NCBI GenBank assembly: GCA_947450545.1
Contig: CANFVU010000003.1
Span: forward strand, 1-64,000
Reading direction: 5' to 3'
Source: Actinomycetota bacterium
GTDB lineage: Bacteria > Actinomycetota > Actinomycetes > Nanopelagicales > Nanopelagicaceae
Length of the DNA stretch: 64,000 nucleotides
Below the pieces are notes generated by a model. That model had not been told where the DNA came from. It made no database searches and worked only from the letters and a program-made list of their open reading frames with translations. The translations under genes and the position numbers were made by a program. Of this stretch, positions 16,669 through 35,198 are shown one piece after another. The first letter of the stretch is position 1; every line of letters begins with the position of its first letter.

Positions 16669-17846
16669 TGATTGATTTTACAAACGTTGATGTCATAAAC
16701 AATCCATACCCGCATCTGGCTGAACTGCGTAAACATGGCAAGCCGATTTGGCACGAAGAACTCAACCTCTTCTTGGCTCCCAACCACAAAGATGCAAATG
16801 AGGTCCTTCGAAATAAATCGTTAGGCAGAATTTTTAAAGCGAAAGAACCAGAATCTGAATGGAACGTATTTAACTACCTACACTCTGATTCAATTCTCGA
16901 TAGCGAGCCTCCAAAGCACACCCGCCTTCGGTCGTTGGTGATGAAAGCTTTCAATAAGAATCGAATTGAATCCCTACGTCCAAATATCGTGGCTCTCACC
17001 CAAGAACTTCTGAATAACATCGAAGATCTCGGTGGGAACTTTGATTTGATTGCTGACTATGCCGAACCTTTGCCAGTAAAAGTTATTGCAGCGCTTTTGG
17101 GCTTCCCAACAAGCGATGAATATCTCCTGCGCCCATGGTCACAAGCCATAGTGAAGATGTATGAAGTAAACCCTTCTATCGAGAGCCAAGAAGGTGCAAA
17201 GAGAGCAGCAAATGAATTTGCTGAATACGTGCACGGACTCATGCTCCTTCGCAAAGCTCATCCAACAGATGATCTCATCACAGAGCTTGCTCAAGTTGAA
17301 GAAGCGGGCGAAAAACTCTCTACTCACGAACTCATCGCTACATGTGTACTTCTCCTCAATGCTGGACACGAAGCAAGTGTCAATGGATTTGGAAATGGGA
17401 TGGTTGCTGCGCATCAAAACCATTCGCAATGGGAATTGCTCCAACGTGATCCTGAAAAATATTCAGCGACAGCTCTCGAGGAATTCATTCGCTTTGACGC
17501 TCCCCTCCAATTCTTTGAGCGAACCGCTACTTCTGATCTGGAAATGAGCGGGGTAGAAATCAAAGCTGGGCAAAAGATTGTCAGCCTTCTTGGTTCAGCA
17601 AATCGAGATGAAGCAGTCTTCGCCAATGCTCATGACATGGATATCACCCGTGAACACAATCCACATATTGGGTTTGGAGCGGGAATCCACTTCTGTATCG
17701 GAGCGCCTCTTGCCAGACTAGAAATGGGAATTTCTTTACCTGAATTGTTTAAGCGTTTTCCTAAGTTAGAGCTTGAAGAAAATCCAGTGCGTCGCCAGAC
17801 GTTTTCACTACGAGGGTACGAAGCCGTGCCAGCAAGGACATCATGA
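16668..17846 (+). CDS. Cytochrome P450
   Basis: I-helix 'LLNAGHEASVNGF', ExxR 'EEFIR', heme-Cys motif 'FGAGIHFCIGAPLARLE'. Confidence 0.95.
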   Translation: MIDFTNVDVINNPYPHLAELRKHGKPIWHEELNLFLAPNHKDANEVLRNKSLGRIFKAKEPESEWNVFNYLHSDSILDSEPPKHTRLRSLVMKAFNKNRIESLRPNIVALTQELLNNIEDLGGNFDLIADYAEPLPVKVIAALLGFPTSDEYLLRPWSQAIVKMYEVNPSIESQEGAKRAANEFAEYVHGLMLLRKAHPTDDLITELAQVEEAGEKLSTHELIATCVLLLNAGHEASVNGFGNGMVAAHQNHSQWELLQRDPEKYSATALEEFIRFDAPLQFFERTATSDLEMSGVEIKAGQKIVSLLGSANRDEAVFANAHDMDITREHNPHIGFGAGIHFCIGAPLARLEMGISLPELFKRFPKLELEENPVRRQTFSLRGYEAVPARTS

Positions 17847-18778
17847 AAAACTTTATCTTGGATGTAGATACAGGCGTCGATGACGCATTTGCTCTTCTAT
17901 TTGCTGCACGTCATCCTGAAATCAATTTGCTCGGTGTTACGTGCGTAGATGGCAATACAAACCTTAAACAAGTCATCATCAATACTCTTAAAGTTTTAGA
18001 TGCTGCCGAAGCCGGCGATATTCCTGTTTCTGCAGGTGCAACTCGACCTCTTATCGATGAGCCTCGGTATGCCGAACATGTTCATGGTGCTGACGGTTTA
18101 GGCGATCTTGGTTTCCCCGAATCAAAGCGGACTCTCGATCCTCGTCCTGCTGTTGAGCTCATTCGCGACTTGGTTGAAGGCTCTTCAGAACCAGTGACTC
18201 TCATTCCTTTGGCTCCTCTTACGAATATCGCTCTATTTCTACGGGCATTTCCTGAATCTGCAAAGAAGCTTGAACGAATTGTTTTGATGGGTGGATCTGC
18301 TTCGATTGGAAATGCCACTGCAACGGCCGAATTCAATATCTGGCATGACCCTGAAGCTGCAGCGATTGTTTTTCAAAGCGGAATTCCAATCACCATGTAT
18401 GGCCTCGATGTTTTCAATGATTTAACAATGAATCGCACGTATTCCAAGCGACTCATGGATGAAAACCATGCACCATCAACTTTCGCTGGAAGACTAGTTG
18501 ACGCGATGTTGGATCGTCTTGAATATGAAATTACATTAGGAGATTATGGCGCTGTTGCTACTGCGCTGAAACCAGAACTTTCAACTCAAGTAACAATGAA
18601 AGCGATGGTCGATACAACATTTGGTCCTAATCGTGGCGCAACTATTTGCGACCGTCGCCCAGAAGCATTTCAAGAGCTAGATCCAGCTCACTTAGATGCA
18701 CCACGCATCGAAGTATGTACTGCAATTGATGTTGATGCGATGCGCGAACTTTGGCTGCAAACAATCTCTCGGCGTTAA
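17843..18778 (+). CDS. Nucleoside hydrolase family protein (NH-1)
   Basis: 'DVDTGVDDAFALLFA', 'HVHGADGLGDLG', 'AEFNIWHDPEAAAIVF'. Confidence 0.9.
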   Translation: MKNFILDVDTGVDDAFALLFAARHPEINLLGVTCVDGNTNLKQVIINTLKVLDAAEAGDIPVSAGATRPLIDEPRYAEHVHGADGLGDLGFPESKRTLDPRPAVELIRDLVEGSSEPVTLIPLAPLTNIALFLRAFPESAKKLERIVLMGGSASIGNATATAEFNIWHDPEAAAIVFQSGIPITMYGLDVFNDLTMNRTYSKRLMDENHAPSTFAGRLVDAMLDRLEYEITLGDYGAVATALKPELSTQVTMKAMVDTTFGPNRGATICDRRPEAFQELDPAHLDAPRIEVCTAIDVDAMRELWLQTISRR

Positions 18779-19614
18779 ATTCCGATTGGGTGCCAGACAG
18801 TCTTGTGTTCCATAAAGGCAAGCAAGCGTTGAGGTGTTGCTTCTGCTTTGAATGAAGAAATGCGCTTCAAGTTATCTGCACCTGAAACACGAACTTCCTT
18901 ATCTTGAGAAGATGTGAGGCCTGATGCATCAATCGCATCTATCTCCATGTGCGATCCTGCCCACGGCGCTAATTCAGATGTGATACCTGTGAGGATATTT
19001 ACCACTCCACCTGGAAGATCACTTGTGGCAAGTGCTTCGCTTAACGTAATTGCGCATAGAGGAAGTTTTTCACTCGCAATTGCAATCACCGTATTGCCGC
19101 CAGCGATGATGGGTGCAATGGTGTGAACCAACCCAAGGAGTGAGCTCTTTTGTGGTGCAAAAGCTGCAACTACGCCTACTGACTCTGGAATGGTGAAGTT
19201 ATAGAAGGCCCCAGACACCTGATTGGTGGAGCCATAAATCGAGCCAATCTTGTCGCACCAGCCTGAATACCAAACCCATAAATCGATAGCTTCTTGAACT
19301 TGCTTCTTTGCAGCTGCTGGAGCGACGCCTTCAGTTGCAACAATTTCGTCAACAAATTGAGATGTGCGACCTTCCATGATTTCAGCAACGCGGTAAAGAA
19401 TCTGTCCGCGATTAAATGCGGTTGCTGATGACCAACCAGAGTGCGCTGCACGAGCAGCGACAACAGCATCTCGTAAATCTTTGCGCGATGCTTGTGCTGG
19501 GTTCGCGATGAAATTGCCTTTCTTATCTGAAATTTCATAGGAGCGACCAGATTCACTTCGAGGGAAAGCTCCACCGATATAAAGCTTGTAAGTTTTCTTC
19601 ACATCAATACGCAT
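18775..19614 (-). CDS. ALDH-fold protein lacking the catalytic cysteine half
   Basis: 279 aa; ALDH N-terminal features ('LYIGGAFPRSESGRSYEI', 'NTVIAIASEKLPLCAITLSEAL', 'LPGGVVNILTG') but no GQxC catalytic motif. Confidence 0.8.
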   Translation of the reverse strand: MRIDVKKTYKLYIGGAFPRSESGRSYEISDKKGNFIANPAQASRKDLRDAVVAARAAHSGWSSATAFNRGQILYRVAEIMEGRTSQFVDEIVATEGVAPAAAKKQVQEAIDLWVWYSGWCDKIGSIYGSTNQVSGAFYNFTIPESVGVVAAFAPQKSSLLGLVHTIAPIIAGGNTVIAIASEKLPLCAITLSEALATSDLPGGVVNILTGITSELAPWAGSHMEIDAIDASGLTSSQDKEVRVSGADNLKRISSFKAEATPQRLLAFMEHKTVWHPIGI

Positions 19615-21056
19615 TAGTGTCCGCCCTTCAAATATGCAGCAAGACCATGACGGCCACCTTCTCGACCCCAGCCGGATTCTTTGTAACCTCCAAATGGACT
19701 TGCAGGATCAAACTTGTTGAAAGTATTTGCCCAAATCACGCCGGCTTTTAGATGTTTTGCTGTCCATAAAATTCGTGAACCCTTGTCAGTCCAGATACCT
19801 GCTGATAATCCGAACGGGGTGTTATTCGCTTTTTCAATTGCTTCTTGTGGAGTTCTGAATGTCAGAACCGATAGCACAGGTCCGAAGATTTCTTCGCGTG
19901 CGATTTTGTGCGCTTGTGTCACGCCAGTAAATACTGTTGGAGGGAACCAGAATCCTTTTGAAGGAAGGTTGCATGATGGGCTCCACTGTTCAGCCCCTTC
20001 TTCTACGCCAGAAGCAGTGAGCTCGCGAATCTTTTCAAGTTGTGCAGATGAGTTAATTGCACCTAAATCGGTGTTCTTATCGAGAGGGTCTCCAACGCGA
20101 ATTTTTGAGATACGAGCCTTCAATTTAGCCATTAATTCATCGTGGATATTCTCTTGAACGAGCAAACGCGATCCTGCGCAGCAAACATGGCCCTGATTGA
20201 AGAATATGCCAGTGATGATTCCTTCTACAGTCTCATCAATAGGTGCATCTTCAAAGACGATGTTGGCACCTTTTCCACCAAGCTCTAACGTTGCAGACTT
20301 TTTACTTCCTGCAATAGCGCGTGCAATTCCTTTGCCGACATCAGTTGAACCAGTAAATGCAATCTTGTCGATTCCTGGATGGTTAACGATTGCGGCACCT
20401 GTTGACCCATCACCTGTCACAATATTTACAACACCAGCGGGCAAACCGGCTTGTTGGCAGACCTCAGCAAAGAGAAGCGCTGTCAACGGAGTTGTTTCAG
20501 CTGGTTTTAAAACAACGGTGTTGCCTGTTGCAAGTGCTGGTGCAATCTTCCACGAAAGCATAAGAAGTGGAAAGTTCCAAGGAATGATCTGTCCAACAAC
20601 TCCATGAGGCTTAGGGGCTGTTCCCACACCTGCATGTTCGAGTTTGTCAGCCCAACCAGCATGATAGAAAAAATGTGCGGCAGCTAATGGAATATCTGTA
20701 TCTCGAGTTTCGCGAATCGGCTTTCCATTGTCCATCGTTTCAAGAACTGCAAATTCACGGGCACGCTCTTGCAGGATTCGTGCAATTCTAAAGAGATATT
20801 TTCCGCGTTCTGCTGCAGGCATCTTCGACCATACTTTGCTGTAAGCCGTACGCGCAGCAGCGACAGCTTTATCTACATCGGATGGCGCAGCAAATGCGAC
20901 TTTAGATAGATGAGCTTCGGTCGCGGGATTGATTGTTGAGAAAACTTTGCCGCCTTTGGCAGGAAGGAACTTGCCGTTAATAAAGAGGCCGTACTCAGGC
21001 TTAATTTTTACAACGGAAGTTGATTCTGGCGCAGAGGCATATTCAAAAGTCATCAT
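19614..21056 (-). CDS. Aldehyde dehydrogenase
   Basis: 480 aa; 'LELGGKGANIVFEDA', catalytic 'FFNQGHVCCAGSRLLV'. Confidence 0.92.
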   Translation of the reverse strand: MMTFEYASAPESTSVVKIKPEYGLFINGKFLPAKGGKVFSTINPATEAHLSKVAFAAPSDVDKAVAAARTAYSKVWSKMPAAERGKYLFRIARILQERAREFAVLETMDNGKPIRETRDTDIPLAAAHFFYHAGWADKLEHAGVGTAPKPHGVVGQIIPWNFPLLMLSWKIAPALATGNTVVLKPAETTPLTALLFAEVCQQAGLPAGVVNIVTGDGSTGAAIVNHPGIDKIAFTGSTDVGKGIARAIAGSKKSATLELGGKGANIVFEDAPIDETVEGIITGIFFNQGHVCCAGSRLLVQENIHDELMAKLKARISKIRVGDPLDKNTDLGAINSSAQLEKIRELTASGVEEGAEQWSPSCNLPSKGFWFPPTVFTGVTQAHKIAREEIFGPVLSVLTFRTPQEAIEKANNTPFGLSAGIWTDKGSRILWTAKHLKAGVIWANTFNKFDPASPFGGYKESGWGREGGRHGLAAYLKGGH

Positions 21057-21994
21057 TAATCCAATGTCACGTAGTTAGATCCAGCATAGTGTCCATCACG
21101 AAGCTTCATGCGTTGCATCAAGAGGTCGTTCAACAAAGCGCTGGCGCCAATGCGGAAAAGCCCTGGATTGAGCCATTCTGGGCCTGCAGTTTCATTGACC
21201 AGCACAAGCTGCTTAATCGCATCCTTGGTAGTGCGGATTCCTCCAGCTGGTTTAACGCCAATTCGTGTACCCGTCATCTCATACCAATCTCGAACCGCTT
21301 CAAGCATAACCAGGACGACTGGGGCTGTTGCAGCCGGAGAAACTTTTCCGGTGCTTGTCTTAATGAAGTCTGCACCTGCAGCCATGGCTAAATACGATGC
21401 TTTTCTGACGTTATCAAGAGTGACCAATTCACCCGTTTCAAGGATGACTTTGAGATGAGCTTTATCTCCACAAATTGATTTGATAAATTCAATCTCATTG
21501 AAAACTTTTACTAAATCACCAGATAGAAACGCACCGCGATCAATCACCATATCAATTTCGGCGGCGCCATTAGCGATTGCATCTTCAGTGTCGCGCTTCT
21601 TAACTTCTAAGGAAGCACGTCCTGATGGGAATGCTGTGGAGACGGCAGCAACAGGAATATCTTTTCCACCTGAAGCATCAAGATGTTCGCGGGCAACACG
21701 TACCATGTCGTTGTATACACAAATGGCGCCTACATGAGGGACAGTCGAATCACTTGGGTCTGGGCGGACAGCTTTATTGCAAATTGCTTTAACTTTTCCA
21801 GCCGTATCGGCGCCTTCAAGAGTAGTTAAGTCAATCATCGAGATTGCCATGTCGATTGCCCAGCTCTTGCTGGAAGTCTTAATGCTTCGAGTTGCAAGCA
21901 TTGCTGCTCGAGCTTCCGCTCCTACTTGATCTACCGGCGAAAGAGTTTTAAGAAACCCTTTAATGGAAGGCAGAGTTCCATCCATAACGCGCAT
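21056..21994 (-). CDS. deoC: Deoxyribose-phosphate aldolase
   Basis: 'LKVILETGEL', 'GADFIKTSTGK', 'GVKPAGGIRT'. Confidence 0.93.
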   Translation of the reverse strand: MRVMDGTLPSIKGFLKTLSPVDQVGAEARAAMLATRSIKTSSKSWAIDMAISMIDLTTLEGADTAGKVKAICNKAVRPDPSDSTVPHVGAICVYNDMVRVAREHLDASGGKDIPVAAVSTAFPSGRASLEVKKRDTEDAIANGAAEIDMVIDRGAFLSGDLVKVFNEIEFIKSICGDKAHLKVILETGELVTLDNVRKASYLAMAAGADFIKTSTGKVSPAATAPVVLVMLEAVRDWYEMTGTRIGVKPAGGIRTTKDAIKQLVLVNETAGPEWLNPGLFRIGASALLNDLLMQRMKLRDGHYAGSNYVTLD

Positions 21995-22134
21995 TAATAG
22001 AGTCTATCGTCACCGATACCTTCTGAGAAGGGTAATTTCCATAATTATCGCTACATCTCTTGTGCTTTTGCGCTAAAAAGTTAGCCTTGGATTCGCACGG
22101 TTGAAAGCCAATAAAGAAACAAGGAGAAATACTG

Positions 22135-23100
22135 TTGAAACTAGTAATTGATACTGACACTGGAAGCGACGATGCAGTTGCACTGATGTTGGCACTGGGC
22201 AACCCTAAAGTCTCCGTTGAATTGATAACAACAGTTGCAGGAAACGTTCCGCTCAATCTCGCAACAGAGAATGCTTTGGCGACAGTTGCTCTTATGGGTT
22301 CTAAAGTTCCTGTCTATTCTGGAATGGCAAAACCGATCACTCGTGAATTACACACAGCCCAAAATGTTCATGGGCCAGATGGAATGAGTGGCGCACAAAT
22401 TCCACGTACCCACCTGAAAGTTGATGGTACCGATGGAGTCACCCAGCTCATAGAAATTAGTAAGAAGTTTCCAGGCGAATTAACTCTTGTCACTCTTGGG
22501 CCACTGACGAATATCGCAGCAGCTCTCTTGCAAGATCCTCAAATGCTTCACCGCTTTAAAGATGTCTACATGATGGCTGGTTCACCAGAAGGTTGGGGCA
22601 ATGTGACACCAAGCGCTGAGTTCAACGTGTGGTGCGATCCTGAAAGTTTTAAGATTGTTTTGAATTCTGGAAAACGTCTCATCATGGTTGGTTGGAACAT
22701 TAGCCGTGATGCTGCTGTGATTGGCGCAGAGGAAGAGGCAAAGATTCGCGCAATAGGTACTGCACGAGCGGCTTACGTCATTGATATTAATGAGACGCTT
22801 GCAATTTTCTGTAGAGATATCACCAATCTTCCTGGATTTGATCTGCCAGATCCGATCACAGTTGCAATTGCAATTGCACCAGAAATGATTCGTAAGAGTG
22901 AATTTGTTTCAATGGATGTAAGTTGCTCTGAAGAGATGCGAGGAACTCTTATTATCGATCGACGACATACGGCTCCTGCCCCAAATGTGGATGTCGTGTG
23001 GGAAGCTGATCGCGATATGTTCCTCAATTCCCTCTATGAAGTCTGTAAAGATTCCAGTAACCCTGCTAACTACATTCCAGCACAAAGGAGCGGCAAGTAA
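22135..23100 (+). CDS. Nucleoside hydrolase family protein (NH-2)
   Basis: 'IDTDTGSDDAVALMLAL', 'NVHGPDGM', 'AEFNVWCDPESFKIVL'. TTG start. Confidence 0.9.
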   Translation: MKLVIDTDTGSDDAVALMLALGNPKVSVELITTVAGNVPLNLATENALATVALMGSKVPVYSGMAKPITRELHTAQNVHGPDGMSGAQIPRTHLKVDGTDGVTQLIEISKKFPGELTLVTLGPLTNIAAALLQDPQMLHRFKDVYMMAGSPEGWGNVTPSAEFNVWCDPESFKIVLNSGKRLIMVGWNISRDAAVIGAEEEAKIRAIGTARAAYVIDINETLAIFCRDITNLPGFDLPDPITVAIAIAPEMIRKSEFVSMDVSCSEEMRGTLIIDRRHTAPAPNVDVVWEADRDMFLNSLYEVCKDSSNPANYIPAQRSGK

Positions 23101-24036
23101 GTGAAAAAAACCCCAATAATCCTCGATTGCGATCCAGGCCATGACGATGCAATGGCAATACTTCTTGCTGCATATAACCCAGCAATTGAGCTCCTTGGTA
23201 TAACCACAGTATCCGGTAATGGAATCATCGATAAAGTCACCGAGAATGCTCTTCGCGTCTGCGCTCTAGCGAAAATTCAAGTACCCGTTGCACAAGGCGC
23301 TGGAAATGCGATTCTTGGAGCGGTTGAAGCGGCATCAGATATTCATGGTGAGACTGCACTGGATGGTGCACCTCTGCCTGCCCCTACTTTCGCTCTGGAG
23401 AGTATTCATGGAGTGGATCTAATTGCACAGCTCGTGCGAAAGAGTTCTGAGAAAGTAACTCTCGTAGGAACTGGTCCACTGACTAATATCGCTCTATTTT
23501 TGAAGATGTATCCCGAACTTAAATCCAATATCGCGCATATCGTATTTATGGGCGGAAGTGCTTCACGTGGAAATCGCACGCCTTATGCTGAATTTAATAT
23601 TTGGATGGACCCGGAAGCTCTAGAGGTTGTCTTAAAGTCTGAACTTCCAATCACCATGATTGGATTGGATGTCACCCATCAAGCTCTCATCACTAAAGAG
23701 ATTTTTGACAAGCTTGAAGCTATGAATACCGAAGTTTCGAAGACCATGACAGGTCTTATGCGATTCTTCGCTAAAACTTACAACGATGTCTTTGAAATGC
23801 CAGATCCTCCACTGCATGATCCACTTGCAATCGCTGTTTTGATTGATCCAACGGTCACAAAGAATCGTTTTGTAAACGTTGAAATTGAACTCAACGGAAC
23901 TCATACTCGTGGGGCAACTGTCGTAGATATCTACAACCGCACAGGACGCAAAGCGAATGTCAACGTTGCTCTAGAACTCGATTTCGACAAATTCTGGAAC
24001 ATGATGCTCGATGCGGTTGATAAAGCCGGTCGTTAA
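23101..24036 (+). CDS. Nucleoside hydrolase family protein (NH-3)
   Basis: 'LDCDPGHDDAMAILLAA', 'AEFNIWMDPEALEVVL', 'LHDPLAIAVLI'. GTG start. Confidence 0.92.
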   Translation: MKKTPIILDCDPGHDDAMAILLAAYNPAIELLGITTVSGNGIIDKVTENALRVCALAKIQVPVAQGAGNAILGAVEAASDIHGETALDGAPLPAPTFALESIHGVDLIAQLVRKSSEKVTLVGTGPLTNIALFLKMYPELKSNIAHIVFMGGSASRGNRTPYAEFNIWMDPEALEVVLKSELPITMIGLDVTHQALITKEIFDKLEAMNTEVSKTMTGLMRFFAKTYNDVFEMPDPPLHDPLAIAVLIDPTVTKNRFVNVEIELNGTHTRGATVVDIYNRTGRKANVNVALELDFDKFWNMMLDAVDKAGR

Positions 24037-24788
24037 TTAACGTCGCGGCCATTCTCTTTATCTTCAGCAATGATTTCGCGCAGAGCTTGAACAGCGGTCT
24101 GTAGCAAAATATCTAGCGGTGGCATTGGATCTTTTGCATGAACCATCATGACTCCGCCTGCTCGTACTCGAAGCATGGATGCGACAACAAATAGCGCAGA
24201 AGCCTCCATTTCTGAGCACAGCGCTCCTCCTATTTCCCAAGCTTTCCAGCGATTGAGAAGCTCAGGGCCGACGCCCATTCGCTGTGGCTCATGCTGGCCG
24301 TAGAAAGAATCCTTCGATTGAGTAATGCCCGTACGATGTTTAGCACCTGTCTTCTTCGCTGCACGTTGGAGAGCGCGGACTAAATCGATATCTGCGATAG
24401 CGGGAAATTCGATTGGCATGTAATGAAGTGATGTGCCCTCATCGCGAATAGCCGCAGAAATAATTGCAAGCTCTCCGGAGACAATATCTTTCTGAATGTG
24501 GCCCGAAGTTCCCACTCGAATGAAAGTATCAGCTCCAACTCGCACGAGTTCTTCTAGTGCAATTGCTGCGGAAGGACAGCCAATTCCTGTTGAGGTCACA
24601 GAAACTTTTACTCCATCGAGGTAACCGGTGTAGGTGTTGTATTCGCGATTTTGAGTTACATGTACAGGGTTATCAAAGAGAGCTGCAATAGCTTCGCAAC
24701 GTCCAGGATCTCCAGGCAGCAATACATATTTACCGACATCACCTTTCTTGAGGTTGATGTGGTATTGCTTTCCGTCAGCTGTTTCCAT
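24033..24788 (-). CDS. Uridine phosphorylase-type nucleoside phosphorylase (Udp-1)
   Basis: 'VLLPGDPGRCEAIA', 'VTSTGIGCPSAAIALEELVRVGADTFIRVGTSG', 'QSKDSFYGQHEPQRMG'. Confidence 0.88.
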   Translation of the reverse strand: METADGKQYHINLKKGDVGKYVLLPGDPGRCEAIAALFDNPVHVTQNREYNTYTGYLDGVKVSVTSTGIGCPSAAIALEELVRVGADTFIRVGTSGHIQKDIVSGELAIISAAIRDEGTSLHYMPIEFPAIADIDLVRALQRAAKKTGAKHRTGITQSKDSFYGQHEPQRMGVGPELLNRWKAWEIGGALCSEMEASALFVVASMLRVRAGGVMMVHAKDPMPPLDILLQTAVQALREIIAEDKENGRDVN

Positions 24789-25509
24789 TGTTATCTCCTT
24801 TGATTACATTGCGAAGACCTTCGATTGCCGTTTCGATGAGCGGTTCCAAACCTTTAAATTCTCCATCGCCCCACATCGCCATGATTCCACCTGCACGTAC
24901 GCCAAGCATGGAAGCAACAACAAAGAGCGCAGAGGATTCCATTTCAGAGCAAATTGCTCCGCCTATCTCCCATGCTTTCCAGCGGTTCAATAACCGCGTG
25001 GTGACACCAGAATGTTCAGGTTCAACTTCTCCGTAGAAAGAATCTTTCGATTGAGTGATGCCTACTCGAAATGGGACACCTTTGGACTTCGCAGCAGTTC
25101 GAAGTGCTTCCACGAGACCAAAATCTGCAACTGCTGGAAACTCAGGAGGCATATAGTGAATCGAGGTTCCTTCATCGCGAATAGCCCCTGTAATAATGGC
25201 CAATTCCCCGCTTTTTGTGCCTGGCTGGATCGCCCCGGACGTTCCTACGCGAATAAAAGTATCTGCGCCTACTCGGACCAACTCTTCGAGTGCAATTGCT
25301 GCCGATGGACAGCCAATTCCTGTTGAGGTCACAGAGACTTTAACTCCGTCAAGATATCCGGTGTATGTCACATATTCACGATTGGTCGCAACATGAACCG
25401 CGCTATCTAAGTGGCGAGCAATTACTTCGACTCGACCAGGATCTCCAGGTAACAAGACATATCTGCCAACATCGCCAGCTTCTAATTGAATGTGATGCTG
25501 CTTGCTCAT
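24775..25509 (-). CDS. Uridine phosphorylase-type nucleoside phosphorylase (Udp-2)
   Basis: Tandem paralogue of Udp-1; 'VLLPGDPGRVEVIA', 'QSKDSFYGEVEPEHSG'. Confidence 0.88.
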   Translation of the reverse strand: MSKQHHIQLEAGDVGRYVLLPGDPGRVEVIARHLDSAVHVATNREYVTYTGYLDGVKVSVTSTGIGCPSAAIALEELVRVGADTFIRVGTSGAIQPGTKSGELAIITGAIRDEGTSIHYMPPEFPAVADFGLVEALRTAAKSKGVPFRVGITQSKDSFYGEVEPEHSGVTTRLLNRWKAWEIGGAICSEMESSALFVVASMLGVRAGGIMAMWGDGEFKGLEPLIETAIEGLRNVIKGDNNGNS

Positions 25510-26438
25510 AGCGTCTTTACTCTTTCAATTAGAAAATCCATAAACGCCTCAACATCTACTTCCATCGCTACTTTTGCGTTTGGCGCTTTCTTGTAAACGT
25601 TATAGAAATCTACAGATGTCTTTGCTCGCGTAAATTCGCCTTTGAGTTCAATGGTCATGAAATACTCTTTGAGGGTTACAAGTTCAGGTCGAATCAGAAT
25701 TGCCGCTGCAAGCGGATCGTTGATTGCACAACCGTCAATCGACTGGTACTCATCATGAAATTCCATATAGAACCGAGTCGAGTCATCTATGAATTTGATA
25801 ATTTCGGGTTTAGCTCCTGCAAGCTTTTCAATATGTTTCTTTGTAAAAAGGCACTTGTATGTGACATCGAGTGGAACCAGAGTAAAGTCAAAACCAGCGC
25901 GCAACACAATATCGAAAGCCTCAGGGTCACAATAAACATTGTATTCAGAATCTGGAGTCATGTTTCCTGGGTAATGAACAGATCCACCCATTACTACAAC
26001 TCGATTAATGAGTTTGATGATTGAGGGATCTTTGTGAATCGCAAGAGCGATATTTGTGAGAGGCCCGATTGCTAAAATCGTGATTTCATGTGGATACTTA
26101 TGAACAAGTTCGATGATGGTATCGATTGCATTCGTAGGTGATGGGCTCGACGTTGCATCAGGAAGCTTGGCATAGCCCAAACCACCATCCCCATGAGTCT
26201 CCTCAGCCACAGTCAAGCTTTTGACAAGCGGTTCACTCGCCCCACGCGCTACTGGAACGCCCTGTAAGCCGAGGAAATCCTTGAGACGAAGTGCGTTCGC
26301 TAAGCACTTATCTACGCTCGTATTTCCATGTGTAACGGTGATTGCTTCGAGGGATATTTCTTTCGAGGCAGCTAAAAGCAAGATTGCGAGTGCATCATCA
26401 ATGCCTGGATCGGTATCTAAGATAACGCGAGTTCTCAT
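25506..26438 (-). CDS. Nucleoside hydrolase family protein (NH-4)
   Basis: 'LDTDPGIDDALAILLLA', 'EYNVYCDPEAFDIVL', 'INDPLAAAILI'. Confidence 0.9.
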   Translation of the reverse strand: MRTRVILDTDPGIDDALAILLLAASKEISLEAITVTHGNTSVDKCLANALRLKDFLGLQGVPVARGASEPLVKSLTVAEETHGDGGLGYAKLPDATSSPSPTNAIDTIIELVHKYPHEITILAIGPLTNIALAIHKDPSIIKLINRVVVMGGSVHYPGNMTPDSEYNVYCDPEAFDIVLRAGFDFTLVPLDVTYKCLFTKKHIEKLAGAKPEIIKFIDDSTRFYMEFHDEYQSIDGCAINDPLAAAILIRPELVTLKEYFMTIELKGEFTRAKTSVDFYNVYKKAPNAKVAMEVDVEAFMDFLIERVKTL

Positions 26439-27616
26439 ACCCCATTCTCCAACTTCTTTCCACGGATTCCAATAGTGGAGACGAGGAATGCCAGAACTGT
26501 TGCACCCAGCATTAAATCAAATCCATGCCAACCACCAAGGTGAGAAACCAAAATTCCGCTCAACGATGCGCCAATAGTAATTCCCATTGAAATCGATGCT
26601 CCGAGGAGAGAGAACGCTTCATTCAAGCGATGGACAGGTACAAGTTCCTTAAGTCGTTCATTTGCTGAAATGAGCGATGGGGCAATTGCAATACCGGCAA
26701 TGATCAACCAGAACACGATTGTTTCATAGTCATGGAAGAGAACTAACCCCGAAGTACCGAGTGACATCAAGAGCAATGATGCAGTCAATCTCTTTGCAGA
26801 CGATATTTTCCAATGGATAAAACCATAAGCAAATCCTGCAACAGTGCTGCCGATGGGATTAAGTCCAACCCACAATCCACCATCAGCGGCTCGACCGCCT
26901 TCACGTGCAACAGCGAGAATCACAACGTACTGCGCGCCAAAAGTTATGCCAATACAAATCAGCGTAGCTAAGAGAGGCTTCACATAAGGAATCTTTAATA
27001 ACCCACCATGCTTTTCAATGGGTTGAGGATGTCCACCATGATCAGTGCTCGTGAGCGCTAACCCAAATCCTGCAATCAATAGAAAAACCATTCCCCCAAT
27101 AAGTGGTGAGTGTGAGCCTTTCCATGAAAATAGGAAACCAGCAAGTGCGGGACCAACAACGAATGCAGTCTCATCAAGTACAGATTCGAGAGAAAGAGCC
27201 ACTCCGAGTTCACGGTCATCGCCCAATGAACGACTCCAGCGAGTACGGGTATAGCTGCCAAAATTCGGAAAGGTTGATCCGGCAAGAGCCGAGAATAAAA
27301 GTAAGAAGAAATTGTTCTTCTCCCCCAACGTCAAAATCCCGGTAATGAATATGGCATTCAATAAAGTAACCGGAATCAATACTTTTCGAGTCCCTTTGAT
27401 GTCAGCTAAACGACCGATGCGGGGGCCGGCAAAAGCGCCTGAAAGTGTGTAACACGAGGAAGCCAACCCAGCCAGAGCAAACGAGCCACGGACGGAAGAG
27501 ATAAGAAAGACGAGAGCTACCGTATTCATTGCGAGAGGCAATCGACCAATTATTCCAAATCCGAAAGTGGAGAAGGAATGATCTTTACGAAGAACGGCTT
27601 TATAGGCGCTCAACAT
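26435..27616 (-). CDS. MFS transporter (within nucleoside operon)
   Basis: 12-TM protein; 'GPRIGRLADIKGTRKVLI' resembles the MFS loop motif; 4-nt overlap with NH-4. Confidence 0.85.
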   Translation of the reverse strand: MLSAYKAVLRKDHSFSTFGFGIIGRLPLAMNTVALVFLISSVRGSFALAGLASSCYTLSGAFAGPRIGRLADIKGTRKVLIPVTLLNAIFITGILTLGEKNNFFLLLFSALAGSTFPNFGSYTRTRWSRSLGDDRELGVALSLESVLDETAFVVGPALAGFLFSWKGSHSPLIGGMVFLLIAGFGLALTSTDHGGHPQPIEKHGGLLKIPYVKPLLATLICIGITFGAQYVVILAVAREGGRAADGGLWVGLNPIGSTVAGFAYGFIHWKISSAKRLTASLLLMSLGTSGLVLFHDYETIVFWLIIAGIAIAPSLISANERLKELVPVHRLNEAFSLLGASISMGITIGASLSGILVSHLGGWHGFDLMLGATVLAFLVSTIGIRGKKLENGV

Positions 27617-27628
27617 GCGAGCGTTGAT

Positions 27629-28078
27629 CTACTTCTCATCTTGCCACTTTTTCAATATCTCAAATGCAGCATCAAATGTATCAACTAAAGCTCCAGCATC
27701 TTCAACGCAGCCGCGGACAAATAGATTGATTCCTTTTCCGTCAATCATATTGCGATCGCGAATAACGCGAGTATCTGTCACAAGGCCGACGATTCCTTTT
27801 TTACTTTTATCGTGGCGCATTTCATTCCAAAAAATTCCAATTTCATTCGCAGTCCCATCATCAACCATAGGACCATCGAGCAAAGCTAAAACGGCATCTG
27901 CTTTCAGAACTTCTGTTGAATCAATCCCAAAAATGAATTTAGGGGTAACTGGATCTGGTAGCGGAATCTCGTGCGGAACAAAAACTTCCATACCTGCATC
28001 ACGCAGTTTCTTTGCGCATTGATCAATGAAAGCCCGCTCGTAAGGTGTAAAGAGTGGTCCAGCAAAATAAATTCTCAT
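27629..28078 (-). CDS. Nucleoside 2-deoxyribosyltransferase-like protein
   Basis: 'MRIYFAGPLFTPYERAF', 'ADAVLALLDGPMVDDGTANEIG' (NDT-type DGTxxE). Start placed at the internal ATG that overlaps the stop of the upstream gene. Confidence 0.85.
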   Translation of the reverse strand: MRIYFAGPLFTPYERAFIDQCAKKLRDAGMEVFVPHEIPLPDPVTPKFIFGIDSTEVLKADAVLALLDGPMVDDGTANEIGIFWNEMRHDKSKKGIVGLVTDTRVIRDRNMIDGKGINLFVRGCVEDAGALVDTFDAAFEILKKWQDEK

Positions 28079-29073
28079 CAGTACATTACCGTTTTCGTAA
28101 GATGGTGTGGCCAGTGCGTTGCGTGATACGCCTTCCATAATCTGAAATCCACTTGAGGCATCAAGAGAGGTTCAAGATTGGGGCGCAGCGCGTTGATTTC
28201 CTCTGTCAGACGTGCGATTGCATAAATGGAGTTCGCTCTGATCTCAATTTCAGCATCGCTATCCCGAGGTACTTCAACAAGAGAATTGATCTGATTCTCT
28301 AGAGTTGGTGAGTATTCAAAGATTCCCATTACTCGAAGCCCGACTGGCACGATGTAATCCGCAAAAGCGGTTAAAAGATGGGCATCTTCCAAGGCCCATG
28401 CTTTGCGTGGCATCAGCGATAGGTGAAGTCCCCAGATACCCAGCTGTGGCAGCTTATAAAGCTGAATAAGCGAGCCTTTGTAATCAGAGACATCGGCGAA
28501 TCGAGGGAACTCGGTCGTCAATCTCTCCAAGATGCCATTCCCGTTTGCATAGAGTCGAGGAGCGCAATCGCGAACAAAGTTGTGCCAATGTCCATCATAT
28601 TTTTCAACGAGGACTTTGCCCACTTCATTGAAGATTTTTACGCGTTCATCCAACATCGGCATTTCAATGGTTCCGTTGAAAACTTCCTCTAGATCTTTGC
28701 GCGTCATCTTCGCTTGATATTCACCATCGAAGAAGGGAATGCCTTTGGCTTTAGCGCGATGCAAATCAGCCATCATCGCTTCGCTATCGCTGTAGCGACG
28801 ACCGTTGTAATCACTCTCGTATTTGATACCCGTATCAAAATTAGTGAATGCAAAATTCATCGTGTTTACAGTGAGGGTGAGATCCATCAAGAAATTTGGA
28901 TCGTCGCCAAAATTAAAGAGAGAGGAACCATCCGGTTTGGCAAATTCCTCGTATGCCATCCATGAAGCTACTTCTTTGATCTTTGCTTCGTTGACCTTTA
29001 TGAGCGTCGAATTTTTTACGACGGGGTCAAGACTCTTGAGAACTTGTGATTCCCAAAAATCTATTTGAGACAT
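28078..29073 (-). CDS. Queuosine-salvage family protein (DUF2419 / Qng1-like)
   Basis: 331 aa; 'AKMTRKDLEEVFNG..MPMLDERVKIFNEVGKVLVEKYDGHWHNFVRDC', 'LLTAFADYIVPVGLRVMGIFEYS', 'EIEIRANSIYAIARL' match the layout of the eukaryotic QNG1 (C9orf64) family as recalled. Confidence 0.8.
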   Translation of the reverse strand: MSQIDFWESQVLKSLDPVVKNSTLIKVNEAKIKEVASWMAYEEFAKPDGSSLFNFGDDPNFLMDLTLTVNTMNFAFTNFDTGIKYESDYNGRRYSDSEAMMADLHRAKAKGIPFFDGEYQAKMTRKDLEEVFNGTIEMPMLDERVKIFNEVGKVLVEKYDGHWHNFVRDCAPRLYANGNGILERLTTEFPRFADVSDYKGSLIQLYKLPQLGIWGLHLSLMPRKAWALEDAHLLTAFADYIVPVGLRVMGIFEYSPTLENQINSLVEVPRDSDAEIEIRANSIYAIARLTEEINALRPNLEPLLMPQVDFRLWKAYHATHWPHHLTKTVMY

Positions 29074-29076
29074 ACG

Positions 29077-30312
29077 TTAACTCTCCTCGCCTTTCCTGTA
29101 AGGCGCCCCAGCCATGGCTGGTGGGCGCAGTTTTTGAGATAGAAATGCCAGAACTAAGATCGTGGTCAAGTTCGGGAAGAAGGTGACAAATTCGTCAGGC
29201 ACCACTTTATTGATCATGTAGTAAGCCAAAACGAATACCGCAATACCGAGATTGATTCCAAAACCTTTCCAATCCTTCTTGCGAAGTTTGGTGAGGCTAT
29301 ATACAGCTGCTAAAACAATCACGACTAAGAGAAGTGCGTGAACAGAAGTAGATTGGCGAACGCGGAGCGCATCCGTTAATCCAAAGAGAGCCGCACCGGC
29401 AAGAACTCCAGCTGGTTGCCAGTTGCCGAAAATAACCGCAGCAAGGCCGATATAGCCTCGTCCTGCAGTTTGGCCTTCGAGGTAATTACCAGTGACAACC
29501 ACTGAAATATAGGCACCTCCGAGGCCTGCGAGTGCGCCTGATACAGCCAGGGCGATGTAGCGAGTGCGATAGACGTTCACACCAAGGGATTCAGCTGCTG
29601 ATGGATTTTCACCGCAGAAACGCATGCGCAATCCAAAACGTGTCTTCCACAGAATCCATGAAGTGAGAGGGAGAGCCAAAATCATGACGAGTGATGCCCA
29701 GTTGATTGAAGTAATGAATCCAGCAACCACACCTGCAACATCTGAGATAACGAGAATGTGTTTCTGTCCAAGAGAAGTGAGGAATGGACTTAGCCCCGGA
29801 ACAGTAAATGAACTAATAGATTTCACTTGAGGTGAAACGTTCACATCTCCTCCAGCTCCGATAAAGAAAACTCCGGAGAGAAAACGTGCCGTTCCAGCGC
29901 CAAGCAAGTTAATTGCAAGACCTGATACAGCTTGATCAATACCAACTCGCACCGTCAATATTGCGTGAAGCAAACCAGCGAGTGCGCCACCAACTGCTCC
30001 TGCAAAAATTCCAACCCATGGTCCATATAAATAGCCAAACCATGCGCCAAACCATGTTCCAAGAATCATCATTCCTTCAAGACCGATATTGATGACACCA
30101 GAGCGTTCAGCCCACAAGCCGCCAAGTCCCGCCATTAAAAGTGGAATGGTGAAACGAATCGTTGCTCCTGCAGCACCTGGTGAGGTGATGTCTGAGATGC
30201 CAGTGAATTGGCGAACGACCGAAACCAAAATTACAACACCGGCAACGGTGAGCATCATGCGTGATGGAGATGTAATGATGCGCCAGAGGCGATTCTCTTT
30301 GAGAGTGCTCAT
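29077..30312 (-). CDS. BMP-type nucleoside ABC transporter permease
   Basis: Multi-TM permease; 'LWAERSGVINIGLEGMMILGTWFGAW' signature of this permease family. Confidence 0.92.
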   Translation of the reverse strand: MSTLKENRLWRIITSPSRMMLTVAGVVILVSVVRQFTGISDITSPGAAGATIRFTIPLLMAGLGGLWAERSGVINIGLEGMMILGTWFGAWFGYLYGPWVGIFAGAVGGALAGLLHAILTVRVGIDQAVSGLAINLLGAGTARFLSGVFFIGAGGDVNVSPQVKSISSFTVPGLSPFLTSLGQKHILVISDVAGVVAGFITSINWASLVMILALPLTSWILWKTRFGLRMRFCGENPSAAESLGVNVYRTRYIALAVSGALAGLGGAYISVVVTGNYLEGQTAGRGYIGLAAVIFGNWQPAGVLAGAALFGLTDALRVRQSTSVHALLLVVIVLAAVYSLTKLRKKDWKGFGINLGIAVFVLAYYMINKVVPDEFVTFFPNLTTILVLAFLSQKLRPPAMAGAPYRKGEES

Positions 30313-31415
30313 GCTTTATCTCCTTTCGCTTCTGTTACAACTTGTGGAGCATCAACGGCACCCACCAAGCGTTGTTGCTGACGACGAGTAATTCTCTTAA
30401 CGATTTCGTACGATGCAACAGTTGAGAGAATGATTGAGCCTTGCATCATCATGACAATCTCTTTAGGGATCCCGTTGAGATCGAGAATTGGAGCGGCTTG
30501 CTCTAGGAAAGCCCAGAAAAAGGCAGCAAATGCGATACCAATCGGGTTATTTCGACCCAAGAGAGCAAGTGCCAATCCAGTCAGCGCGTAGCCGGTCGGG
30601 AATGCGAGGCTATAGGTGTGGGTAGAGCTCAAGAGCTCGCCCATTCCCGTTAAACCTGCAATCGCACCCGAAAGAGCCATCGTTATAAAAATCATGCGAG
30701 GTGCATTGACACCGCTAGCACGAGCAGCACGGAAGGACATACCGGTTGCACGTAGATTGAATCCAAAGACGCTCTTGTTGAGCACAACCCAATAGAGAAC
30801 GCCGACACCAATTGCTACAAAAGCGAAGCTGTAAAGCTCGCCACCAAGGATATGGATAGAAGGCATCCATCCTGATTTTGGAATCATTGGAGTTGCCAAG
30901 TTATCAGAGTTCTTGCCTTTGAGGCCAAGTCGACTTGGTTGGAGAAGATAAATAATGAGACCTGAGGCAATCGTGTTCAACATAATGTTGCTAATAACTT
31001 CAGAGATGTTTCTCTTTACTTTCAAATATCCAGCAATAGATGCCCACAACGCACCGACGACAACACCAGTGAGAATAATGAGTGGCAGTTCCAAGAAAGT
31101 TGGGAGATTAGTAGCGCCACCAACAACTGCAGCAATAAAGATTGCAAGGCGGTATTGACCGTCGATTCCGATGTTGAACAACAACATACGGAAACCAATC
31201 GCAGCCGCAACGCCTGCTAAGTAATAAGCAATCGTTTGATTGAGTTCGGCGATGATATTTTCAGATTCAGCTCCATAGCTCAGAATTAATTGGAAAGTAG
31301 ATAAGGGAGCTGCGCCTTTAATCATCAGAATAATCGAGACGAAAATAAGCGAGAAGAGAATTGCAGCAATCGGGGCAATGAGCGCCCAGAATAATTTACT
31401 TAGCTTCTTATTCAT
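30309..31415 (-). CDS. BMP-type nucleoside ABC transporter permease
   Basis: Multi-TM; 'MLLFNIGIDGQYRLA', 'SEVISNIMLNTIA'; coupled to the neighbouring ABC genes. Confidence 0.92.
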   Translation of the reverse strand: MNKKLSKLFWALIAPIAAILFSLIFVSIILMIKGAAPLSTFQLILSYGAESENIIAELNQTIAYYLAGVAAAIGFRMLLFNIGIDGQYRLAIFIAAVVGGATNLPTFLELPLIILTGVVVGALWASIAGYLKVKRNISEVISNIMLNTIASGLIIYLLQPSRLGLKGKNSDNLATPMIPKSGWMPSIHILGGELYSFAFVAIGVGVLYWVVLNKSVFGFNLRATGMSFRAARASGVNAPRMIFITMALSGAIAGLTGMGELLSSTHTYSLAFPTGYALTGLALALLGRNNPIGIAFAAFFWAFLEQAAPILDLNGIPKEIVMMMQGSIILSTVASYEIVKRITRRQQQRLVGAVDAPQVVTEAKGDKA

Positions 31416-32926
31416 GCGATTTTCTCTCCAGTCATTGCCAAACCAAGCTGTTCAGGCGTCGTTGTTCGAGGATCGAGATAATCAACGATGGAACCTCGGA
31501 AAATGACTGCAATTCGGTCTGAAAGCTTGAAAAGCTCATCTAAATCTGCCGAGACGAGCAGAACGCCTGTTCCCTTGAGTCGAGCTTCAATGAGGTGGTC
31601 CCAGATGATTGCTTGAGCACCCACATCAACGCCTCGAGTGGGTTGAGCGGCGATGATCATCTTGGGATCACCAGACATTTCACGGCCAACTATGAATTTC
31701 TGTTGGTTACCACCAGAAAGAGCATTGGCTAAAACGTCGTTACTTGGAGTGCGCACATCAAACTCTTTGATGATTCGCTCAGAATCACTTTTTGCTGCGC
31801 CTTTATTGATCCACATTCCATTAGACATTGGAGCCGTTTCTTGATGGCCCAAAATGCGGTTCTCCCAGAGTGGAGCAGCCATCAAGAGACCATCTCTCTG
31901 GCGATCTTGTGGAATATAACCAACGCCTTCATCACGAATCTTTCGAAGATCCGCTTCTTTAGTATCTAGTCCAACCGTGACTACAGATCCTGAATCAGGC
32001 TTAACAAGTCCCATGATGAGTTCGATGAGTTCTGATTGGCCATTTCCTTCGACGCCAGCAAGACCAAGAATTTCTCCCGCATGAATATCTAAATTAATGC
32101 CATGCAAAATTTCACGACCGGTGCGATCTTTAGCGGTCGCATCTTTAACTTCGAGAACTTTCTCTTCACGAGGTTTTGTTGATGCTAATCGTGGTGATGG
32201 AAGCTCTCCACCAATCATGTATTCAGCAAGCTGCTTCTTATTTGTATTAGCTGGCTTCACTTCAGCAACTGTTGTGCCATGACGCATTACTGTGATGTTG
32301 TCCGCGATAGTCATCACTTCATCGAGTTTGTGGGAAATAAAGATAATGGTGAGACCATTTTGGGTAAGTTCTTTCAAATTTTTGAAGAGATCATCTACTT
32401 CTTGCGGCACGAGCACCGCTGTAGGTTCATCCAGAATGAGGATTTCAGCGCCGCGGAAGAGAACTTTTGCGATTTCTACACGCTGGCGCTCTCCTACGCC
32501 TAAATCTGAGACTAAATCATCTACATGGATATCAAGCCCATATGTGGAGATGATCTTTTCAATCTTTGCGCGAGCTGCTGCATAGTCCACGACGACCTTT
32601 GCCTTAATTGGCTCGCTACCTAAAACAATATTTTCTAAAACGGTCGCGTTATCGGCCAACATAAAGTGTTGGTGGACCATTCCAATTCCTAAACCAATTG
32701 AATCTTGAGGAGATTTAATCGAAGCTAATTCGCCATTGATGGTGATGGAGCCAGAATCTGGCTTGACCATGCCGTAAAGAATCTTCATCAAAGTAGATTT
32801 TCCTGCGCCATTTTCACCAATGATGGCGTGAATATCGCCTTTGTGAATTTGGATATCTACATCGTGGTTTGCAACCACGCCAGGATAATTCTTTTCAATT
32901 CCCTTGAGTTCAATTGCTAAGTTCAA
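31412..32926 (-). CDS. ABC transporter ATP-binding protein, two nucleotide-binding domains
   Basis: 504 aa; 'GENGAGKSTLMKILYG', 'VGERQRVEIAKVLFRGAEILILDEPTAVL', second domain 'GVEGNGQSEL', 'LSGGNQQKFIVGREM'. Confidence 0.95.
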   Translation of the reverse strand: MNLAIELKGIEKNYPGVVANHDVDIQIHKGDIHAIIGENGAGKSTLMKILYGMVKPDSGSITINGELASIKSPQDSIGLGIGMVHQHFMLADNATVLENIVLGSEPIKAKVVVDYAAARAKIEKIISTYGLDIHVDDLVSDLGVGERQRVEIAKVLFRGAEILILDEPTAVLVPQEVDDLFKNLKELTQNGLTIIFISHKLDEVMTIADNITVMRHGTTVAEVKPANTNKKQLAEYMIGGELPSPRLASTKPREEKVLEVKDATAKDRTGREILHGINLDIHAGEILGLAGVEGNGQSELIELIMGLVKPDSGSVVTVGLDTKEADLRKIRDEGVGYIPQDRQRDGLLMAAPLWENRILGHQETAPMSNGMWINKGAAKSDSERIIKEFDVRTPSNDVLANALSGGNQQKFIVGREMSGDPKMIIAAQPTRGVDVGAQAIIWDHLIEARLKGTGVLLVSADLDELFKLSDRIAVIFRGSIVDYLDPRTTTPEQLGLAMTGEKIA

Positions 32927-33023: not shown

Positions 33024-34085
33024 TTAACCCTGTGGAAGAGTTACAGTCTTTGGATCTGTTGGAACGACAATTGCGCCAGATGCGATCTGCTTCTGGAGAG
33101 CCTTTACCTTTGCAACGATATCCGCTGAGAGGTAACCGCCTGTTGTAGTGAAACCAACTCCACCGTTTGCAGCATCAAAGAGATGTGCATCTGGTGTGAA
33201 CTTGTTAGCTACAACATCGCTCAAGAATGAAGCTACGCCGACATCGACGTTCTTGAGAGCAGAAGTCAAAATTGCTGTCTTGTAAGGAGCATTTGATGCA
33301 TAAAGAGCTTCGTCAGCATCTACGCCGATTGACCACTTCTTCTGCTCGAATGCTGCCTTGTGAGCACCTTGGCCGGTTGAACCAGCTGCTGAGTAAACAA
33401 CGTCTGCACCGTTTTGGAACATTCCAAGTGCTGATTCATGTCCCTTATCAGGAGCATTGAATCCACTGAAATCAGGTGGGTTTGATGCATAAGCAGATTG
33501 GTACTTAATTGTTGGGTCGATCTTTGCTACGCCAGCTTTGAAGCCAGCTTCGAAAGCTTGGATCAATGGAATGTTTACTCCACCGATGAATCCAACGCTC
33601 TTGCTCTTTGAGCTAAGTGCAGCTGCTGCACCAACGAGGTATGAACCTTGTTCAGCTTTGAAGAGAAGGCCTTCTACGTTCTTAGCACCAGCGATGTTGT
33701 CATCAACAATTGCGAACTTAACCTTTGGGTTAGCTTTTGCAACTGCCTTAAGTGCGTTCTCATATGAGTAGCCAACGACTACAACAGGGTTTGCACCTGC
33801 TGCAATGAGAAGCTTCAAGCGCTGTGCGCGTGAGGCATCGGTGTCAGCTGCGTTACCCTGCAAATCTTTTTCTGCCCAACCTGGATGGGTCTTCAAGAAA
33901 GCCTTGAATCCGATGTACGCGAGTTGGTTAAAGCCTGGTTGTTCCTTACCGCCTAGATCGAAAGCGATACCAACCAATTTCTTTGGTGCAGCTGAAGCAG
34001 CTGTGCCATTGAGGGATACAACAGAAAGTGCAAGGCTTGCTGCAACAGCACCAGCCAAAGCTCTTCCTAGAGTCTTTTTCTGCAT
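33024..34085 (-). CDS. BMP family substrate-binding protein (nucleoside-type)
   Basis: Signal peptide; 'LVGIAFDLGGKEQPGFNQLAYIGFKAF', 'SKSVGFIGGVNIPLIQAFEAGFKAGV'. Confidence 0.92.
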   Translation of the reverse strand: MQKKTLGRALAGAVAASLALSVVSLNGTAASAAPKKLVGIAFDLGGKEQPGFNQLAYIGFKAFLKTHPGWAEKDLQGNAADTDASRAQRLKLLIAAGANPVVVVGYSYENALKAVAKANPKVKFAIVDDNIAGAKNVEGLLFKAEQGSYLVGAAAALSSKSKSVGFIGGVNIPLIQAFEAGFKAGVAKIDPTIKYQSAYASNPPDFSGFNAPDKGHESALGMFQNGADVVYSAAGSTGQGAHKAAFEQKKWSIGVDADEALYASNAPYKTAILTSALKNVDVGVASFLSDVVANKFTPDAHLFDAANGGVGFTTTGGYLSADIVAKVKALQKQIASGAIVVPTDPKTVTLPQG

Positions 34086-34268: not shown

Positions 34269-35198
34269 ATGAACTCGCCACATATCGTTGTAGTGGGAAG
34301 CACCATGACAGATATGGTGACCTACGCAAAAAAGATTCCACACCGTGGCGAAACACTCGTCGCTGATAGCTTTGTTATGGGCTTTGGTGGAAAAGGTGCC
34401 AACCAAGCCGTTATGGCAAAGCGTTTCGATGCCAAGGTTTCGATGGTGAACACTCTTGGCGAGGACGTCTTTGGCGACAGTACTCTGAAGAATTTCCAAT
34501 CTCAAGGTATTAATACTGATTTTATTCGTAGAGCGCCTGGAGCAAGCGGTGTAGCGCCGATTTGGGTGGAACCTGACGGCTCCAATCGCATCTTGATCGT
34601 CCCTGGTGCAAATTTCTTGATGACAGAAGAGCAGGCTCAATCTGCCATTGAGGGTTTACAAGGAATCTCCGTAGTCGTCGGACAACTCGAAATCCCTCAA
34701 AACGTAACAGCTGCTGCTTTTAAAGCTGCACGCAAACTTGGCATTCCTACAATTCTCAATCCGGCTCCGTACGCGCCAATCAGTGCAGAACTTCTTGAAT
34801 ATAGCGATTGGATCATGCCTAACGAAACAGAGTTTGCTGCAATGCACCCTGAAGGGTTAGCTCCAACGTCCGATGAAATTATTAGCGAATTTTCTAAGCG
34901 CATCAAAACCAACTTTGCCGTGACTCTCGGCGAAGCAGGCGCAGCTTTCACCACCGATGAAGGCGCTGTCATTCGCGTGAGTGCTCCAAAAGTCGATGCA
35001 ATCGACACAACTGGCGCCGGAGATGCGTTAGTTGGAGCATTTTCCGTTGGCTTGGCTCTTGGTTTGTCTCATGAAAAAGCTCTCAAACTCGGCTGCCTTT
35101 GCGCTTCTGATAGCGTTACACGTCTTGGTACACAGTCCTCATACCCATCTACGGAACGAGTGAATGAGATTCTGAGTGCCCTTATGAAAGAGGTATAG
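34269..35198 (+). CDS. rbsK: Ribokinase
   Basis: PfkB family; 'GFGGKGANQAVMAKRF', 'DTTGAGDALVGAF'. Confidence 0.88.
   Translation: MNSPHIVVVGSTMTDMVTYAKKIPHRGETLVADSFVMGFGGKGANQAVMAKRFDAKVSMVNTLGEDVFGDSTLKNFQSQGINTDFIRRAPGASGVAPIWVEPDGSNRILIVPGANFLMTEEQAQSAIEGLQGISVVVGQLEIPQNVTAAAFKAARKLGIPTILNPAPYAPISAELLEYSDWIMPNETEFAAMHPEGLAPTSDEIISEFSKRIKTNFAVTLGEAGAAFTTDEGAVIRVSAPKVDAIDTTGAGDALVGAFSVGLALGLSHEKALKLGCLCASDSVTRLGTQSSYPSTERVNEILSALMKEV

Follow-up and report, generated by a model that had tools for sequence, protein, structure and literature searches.

The Qng1 (DUF2419) proteins of Sphaerobacter thermophilus (7u07, 7u91) and human (QNG1, 7ugk) are queuosine-5'-monophosphate hydrolases. K199C and D231N mutants of the Sphaerobacter protein exist as solved structures. 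D298 and W302 have been named as active-site residues of Qng1 (PMC11592518). A ureide permease of Acidobacteriota encoded beside qng1 (Ac_UPS) transports preQ0 and preQ1, which its authors found unexpected; it did not carry queuosine, and queuine was carried solely at very high levels (PMC11130926). Queuine-using TGTs are without the valine that clashes with queuine (PMC11570991).

The window (the whole stretch of 64,000 nucleotides that was analysed) belongs to a draft genome of 1.3 Mb and encodes a protein of 331 amino acids which the first-pass annotation had described as a divergent member of the Qng1/DUF2419 family. The family assignment is borne out by a match to Pfam PF10343 (Q_salvage; E 7e-53, 180 bits against a cut-off of 25). 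The closest solved structures are those of Sphaerobacter Qng1 (7uk3/7u07, E 2e-40), followed by the human 7ugk, and a structure model built with 48 homologues (mean pLDDT 93) matches the Sphaerobacter crystals 7uk3/7u07/7u91 with TM values of 0.85–0.89. The host genome contains one PF10343 copy. Its nearest named relatives are found in Planktophila and Nanopelagicaceae MAGs, which makes an acI actinobacterium of the Nanopelagicaceae type the most likely host. A plasmid search with the window protein gave zero matches; with Sphaerobacter Qng1 as query, five distant matches were obtained.

Table 1. Genes around the Qng1-like gene, with positions in the window
Feature	Position	Strand	Evidence
Second uridine-phosphorylase-like protein, tandem copy	24033..24788	-	PF01048; TIGR01718 just under cut-off
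Uridine-phosphorylase-like protein	24775..25509	-	PF01048; TIGR01718 just under cut-off
Inosine-uridine-type nucleoside hydrolase	25506..26438	-	PF01156
MFS transporter	26435..27616	-	PF07690
Nucleoside 2-deoxyribosyltransferase (NDT)-fold protein, 149 aa	27629..28078	-	PF05014, E 3e-15; fold match 7m5h/7o62
Putative Qng1-like N-glycosidase, group c	28078..29073	-	PF10343; PDB Qng1 matches; model TM; tree clade 100/100
ABC permease, BMP-type nucleoside importer	29077..30312	-	Gene order; adjacency to Qng1 conserved
ABC permease, BMP-type importer	30309..31415	-	NCBIfam B6-type ABC permease, below cut-off; presence follows Qng1 within the genus
ABC ATPase, BMP-type importer	31412..32926	-	Profile search
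BMP-type substrate-binding protein	33024..34085	-	Profile search
Ribokinase (PfkB)	34269..35198	+	PF00294; TIGR02152 285 bits, just under cut-off; PDB ribokinases including 2fv7

Relatives were collected by a contig scan, and out of the 146 found 80 loci were retained; most of these belong to acI MAGs, Acidimicrobiia and Acidobacteriota, and a small number to MAGs of Chloroflexi and Proteobacteria. As most of the genomes used are incomplete MAGs, all absences reported here are soft. The tree combined these proteins (group c) with Sphaerobacter and human Qng1 and with a third actinobacterial group carrying a FADN motif. The window protein falls into an 88-row clade, our group c (support 100/100, stem of 3.47 changes per site), which is separate from Sphaerobacter and human Qng1, the only two canonical sequences in the tree, the human one being a fragment on a long branch. 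Judged from the sequences, group c is a so far undistinguished Qng1 clade and not canonical Qng1, in agreement with the divergence noted at first. It occupies 8 of the 61 genomes of the family. The third PF10343 group (L187, L190, L192–L198, L202), found in Actinomycetota, has FADN instead of FADY and keeps the KRAQ and PxHRxR motifs; no ribokinase match was seen near its genes in the five neighbourhoods read (L211–L215).

The catalytic K199 and D231 and the active-site residues D298 and W302 of the Sphaerobacter protein align with K207, D239, D309 and W313 of the window protein, each of which is conserved to 97% or more among the aligned sequences. R200 and R317, which are arginine in every readable sequence of the other Qng1 groups (a and b), are replaced by leucine in group c (L208 in 88 of 88 and L325 in 87 of 87 sequences); our guess is that such a change would be expected if phosphate contacts were lost. 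Further differences of the clade, given from Sphaerobacter to the window protein, are W76 to T77, G92 to D96 and Q236 to V244. The NFxFW, GYW, KRAQ and PxHRxR motifs of the Sphaerobacter and human proteins are absent, and the window protein has NFAFT, DSE, KLPQ and PHHLTKT. Both motif changes that had been quoted earlier, NFAFT for NFxFW and a C-terminus that reads RLWKAYHATHWP, are real.

The neighbouring NDT gene had been regarded as translationally coupled to the Qng1-like gene. On the minus strand the junction reads ...TAC TGATGAGA, with one base common to the Qng1 stop (28080–28078) and the NDT start (28078–28076), so that the overlap stands but the reported ATGA does not, the junction being TGATG with NDT starting at 28078. 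The NDT-like identity of the partner holds both by sequence and by fold. It has the fold and the DG..D.G.A.E motif in common with the nucleoside 2-deoxyribosyltransferases 7m5h and 7o62, and the motif is kept as DGPxxDDGTAxEIG among its acI homologues; compared with these enzymes, however, it is a partner gene only, found in acI loci alone. The Qng1 end can be read in 32 acI loci, and in 27 of them NDT adjoins Qng1 (15 on the same strand, 12 on the opposite one); it was not seen near the Qng1-like gene in any of 47 non-acI loci, so that an NDT-Qng1 pair kept across the clade was not found. Given the 12 acI loci in which the two genes have opposite orientations, coupling is not a conserved feature, and the idea that NDT provides a second step of one pathway finds no support in a gene which is confined to acI loci and often points the other way.

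The complete BMP-type ABC transporter and the nearby MFS gene that had been reported were all found, namely a substrate-binding protein, an ATPase, two permeases and the MFS transporter. The ribokinase gene is divergent from this importer operon and is a conserved partner of the group c clade. We do not prefer the alternative that this PfkB protein is a nucleoside kinase producing Q-5'-MP, since nearly all of its best solved relatives are ribokinases. The Qng1-like gene of acI loci lies within a nucleoside importer and catabolism cluster, and a ribokinase is found at most 6 kb away in 23 of 47 non-acI loci, on the opposite strand in 21 of the 23. Three loci (L074, L076, L077) have a ribokinase next to Qng1, together with NDT, and no visible importer or hydrolase genes. 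Within the genus, a BMP permease ortholog (at least 70% identity) is present in 6 of 6 Qng1 carriers versus 1 of 26 other genomes, the latter being a contig-edge fragment (p 8e-6). Neither a TGT nor a QueA gene was seen beside the group c gene in the 80 loci.

Other parts of the window are also concerned with nucleosides. Positions 17843–26438 form a large nucleoside/deoxynucleoside catabolic island with four PF01156 nucleoside hydrolases, two phosphorylase-family genes, a DeoC-like gene and two aldehyde-dehydrogenase-like genes, the DeoC-like and aldehyde-dehydrogenase-like labels having been read by eye from the sequence. At 15583–18778 (plus strand) a cytochrome P450 gene (16668–17846), an odd member of a nucleoside operon, overlaps with both of its neighbours, one a gene of the adenosine deaminase family and the other a nucleoside hydrolase gene. 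A histidine-degradation-like run of aromatic amino acid lyase, urocanase and amidohydrolase genes is located at 3547–7891 (plus strand). A search of the window for RNAs gave two tRNAs as the only matches and no preQ1 riboswitch.

TGT is present in the host genome (L002:1474-2715) and in 57 of the 61 family genomes. QueA was found in none of the 61, including the host, and instead of a full-length QueC only weak, GuaA-like matches were obtained, in 38 family genomes; of the queuosine genes that the first-pass annotation had wanted to look up, TGT is thus there, and the QueC matches are weak and GuaA-like only. All acI TGTs that were read have a shortened GG-ALDK-like loop without the queuine-blocking valine. 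A queuine-type TGT in acI is plausible, its base preference being judged from this loop, and since TGT is present, QueA and full-length QueC were not found, and the TGT loop is without the blocking valine, queuosine-to-queuine salvage is plausible in the host.

The changed loop has a wider distribution: in the host TGT and in L012–L040 and L216–L220, which come from genomes without QueA, a GG-A[LIV][DEN]K substrate loop (where readable) replaces GGLAVGE, and four of five other actinobacteria that have YhhQ but no QueA show a GGA[LI]EK loop, that of the fifth being uncaptured by the pattern. By their sequences, actinobacterial TGTs with this rewired loop seem to form a class of TGT whose base specificity is altered. 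The gene of the YhhQ/QPTR transporter lies directly beside tgt in 9 of the 61 family genomes; these 9 and the 8 genomes with Qng1 have zero overlap, which is suggestive, not significant (p 0.26).

Carriers of group c outside acI have TGT in 45 of 48 cases and QueA in 42 of 48, which fits a preQ1 route, and most of the TGTs read there have a standard GGLxVGE-type loop, so that they would gain little from free queuine. Two genomes (G080, G401) have a group c member and no detected TGT, contamination being possible in G080, a draft genome whose copy lies on a contig of 14 kb. Co-occurrence with TGT was considered as proof of a queuine role and rejected, because 57 of the 61 family genomes have TGT regardless of Qng1; the argument fails as well on the phylum background, where TGT is present in 253 of the 399 Actinomycetota sampled, and on the presence of QueA in most carriers elsewhere.

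Nine of the ten acidobacterial group c members (L105, L109, L114, L119, L125, L126, L128, L130, L132) have an RRxFL-type twin-arginine motif followed by a hydrophobic stretch at the N-terminus, as judged by script and by eye, and no such signal was found in the scored non-acidobacterial members. The group c Qng1 gene of L114, L125 and L132 has genes for a ureide permease and for a nucleoside hydrolase in its vicinity.

The first-pass annotation had offered either a queuine/7-deazaguanine salvage operon or a relative retargeted to another nucleotide. The family, the divergence and the operon context on which this choice was based hold, and each option has evidence on its side. Salvage is favoured by the TGT of the host, the lack of QueA in the 61 family genomes and of full-length QueC, and the TGT loop without valine. 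Retargeting is favoured by the deep clade, the loss of two arginines, the linkage to ribokinase and nucleoside transporters, the export-like N-termini in Acidobacteriota, the mostly TGT- and QueA-containing genomes and the two genomes without detected TGT. The linkage to ribokinase and nucleoside uptake, together with the twin-arginine-like N-termini, argues for free exogenous nucleosides rather than intracellular Q-5'-monophosphate as substrates. Our leading reading, still tentative at a probability of roughly 0.45, is that the Qng1-like protein may be a nucleoside-level, ribose-releasing N-glycosidase acting on exogenous nucleosides, the foremost candidate substrate being a 7-deazaguanosine, for instance queuosine.

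From these observations we infer an activity, a substrate, a ribose product and a use of the base by TGT as follows. Nucleosides would enter the acI host through the BMP-ABC importer, and the Qng1-like enzyme would cleave a free ribonucleoside of external origin, of a kind which the other nucleosidases of the host may not handle; a 7-deazaguanosine, above all queuosine, would be the most likely one. The glycosidic bond would be hydrolysed via the conserved Lys/Asp and Asp/Trp residues to base and ribose; the ribose could be converted by ribokinase to ribose-5-phosphate, and a queuine-like base could be inserted by the unusual TGT without QueA. In Acidobacteriota, cleavage may take place outside the cytoplasm, with the neighbouring ureide permease importing the base. 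Several observations speak against this reading of a nucleoside-level 7-deazaguanosine enzyme: the non-acI carriers mostly have TGT and QueA with the standard loop, G401 and G080 have no detected TGT, Ac_UPS did not transport queuosine and took queuine at very high levels only (PMC11130926), and the ribokinase could merely serve other nucleosidases of the clusters. A variant, which we consider quite unlikely, is that the enzymes of the clade would be distinct nucleosidases which scavenge 7-deazaguanine nucleosides (those of preQ1 or preQ0) in place of queuosine or along with it, being exported in Acidobacteriota and supplied by an importer in actinobacteria; this would explain why the ureide permease beside the acidobacterial qng1 carries preQ0 and preQ1 and not queuosine.

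The deep, long-stemmed clade, the pocket region rewired at the five positions given above, the consistent nucleoside-catabolism context, the two genomes without detected TGT and the lack of TGT and QueA genes beside the group c gene would also suit a clade retargeted to another nucleoside, be it an ordinary one (purine or pyrimidine) or a different modified one, for pure scavenging of carbon, nitrogen and ribose with no queuosine role. This is possible yet rather doubtful, as the four known Qng1 active-site residues are invariant, each acI cluster already has several hydrolases or phosphorylases for ordinary nucleosides, and TGT is found in nearly all non-acI carriers, though it is common anyway. 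That the protein is an ordinary Qng1, which hydrolyses queuosine-5'-monophosphate from tRNA turnover and delivers queuine to TGT, appears unlikely: the fold and catalytic residues are those of Qng1, the host has TGT without QueA, and TGT is weakly enriched in the phylum sample (12 of 13 PF10343 carriers against 241 of 386 others, p 0.04, groups b and c being mixed), but the two arginines that do not vary among canonical sequences are gone, the gene is linked to nucleoside importers and ribokinase and not to tgt, the protein is found in 8 of the 61 family genomes against 57 for TGT, and the acidobacterial N-termini would put the enzyme away from intracellular monophosphates. The rewired pocket region and a clade without known activity could finally mean that glycosidase activity has been lost or that the protein serves some other purpose, for example nucleoside sensing, which is very improbable given catalytic residues that are invariant across the clade and a gene that is retained in enzyme operons.

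If the nucleoside-level reading is true, the PF10343 label 'queuosine salvage protein' stands for two or more functions, and the wrong substrate is assigned in many environmental genomes. It would also offer a concrete explanation for the published surprise of a preQ1 transporter encoded beside qng1, and point to dissolved nucleosides as a possible source of a 7-deazaguanine for the tiny freshwater actinobacteria with TGT and without QueA.

With Sphaerobacter and human Qng1 the window protein shares the Pfam family, the fold (TM 0.85–0.89) and the equivalents of K199, D231, D298 and W302. Unlike them, it has Thr for the Trp of NFxFW, KL for KR, HL for HR and FADYIVPV for FADY[KR]xPQ, and group c differs from canonical Qng1 as a separate deep clade which is linked to ribokinase and nucleoside import and whose acidobacterial members look exported. 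No literature linking queuosine with a nucleoside hydrolase and a ribokinase was found in our search. The Ac_UPS locus resembles L114, L125 and L132 in its neighbourhood of ureide permease, nucleoside hydrolase and Qng1, although the neighbour, which may belong to group c, was taken as an ordinary Qng1 in that study (PMC11130926). Action at the nucleoside level, as proposed here for the Qng1-like protein, is known from QueK of Clostridioides difficile, which frees queuine and ribose; QueK, however, belongs to an unrelated nucleoside-hydrolase-type family; the window holds four PF01156 genes.
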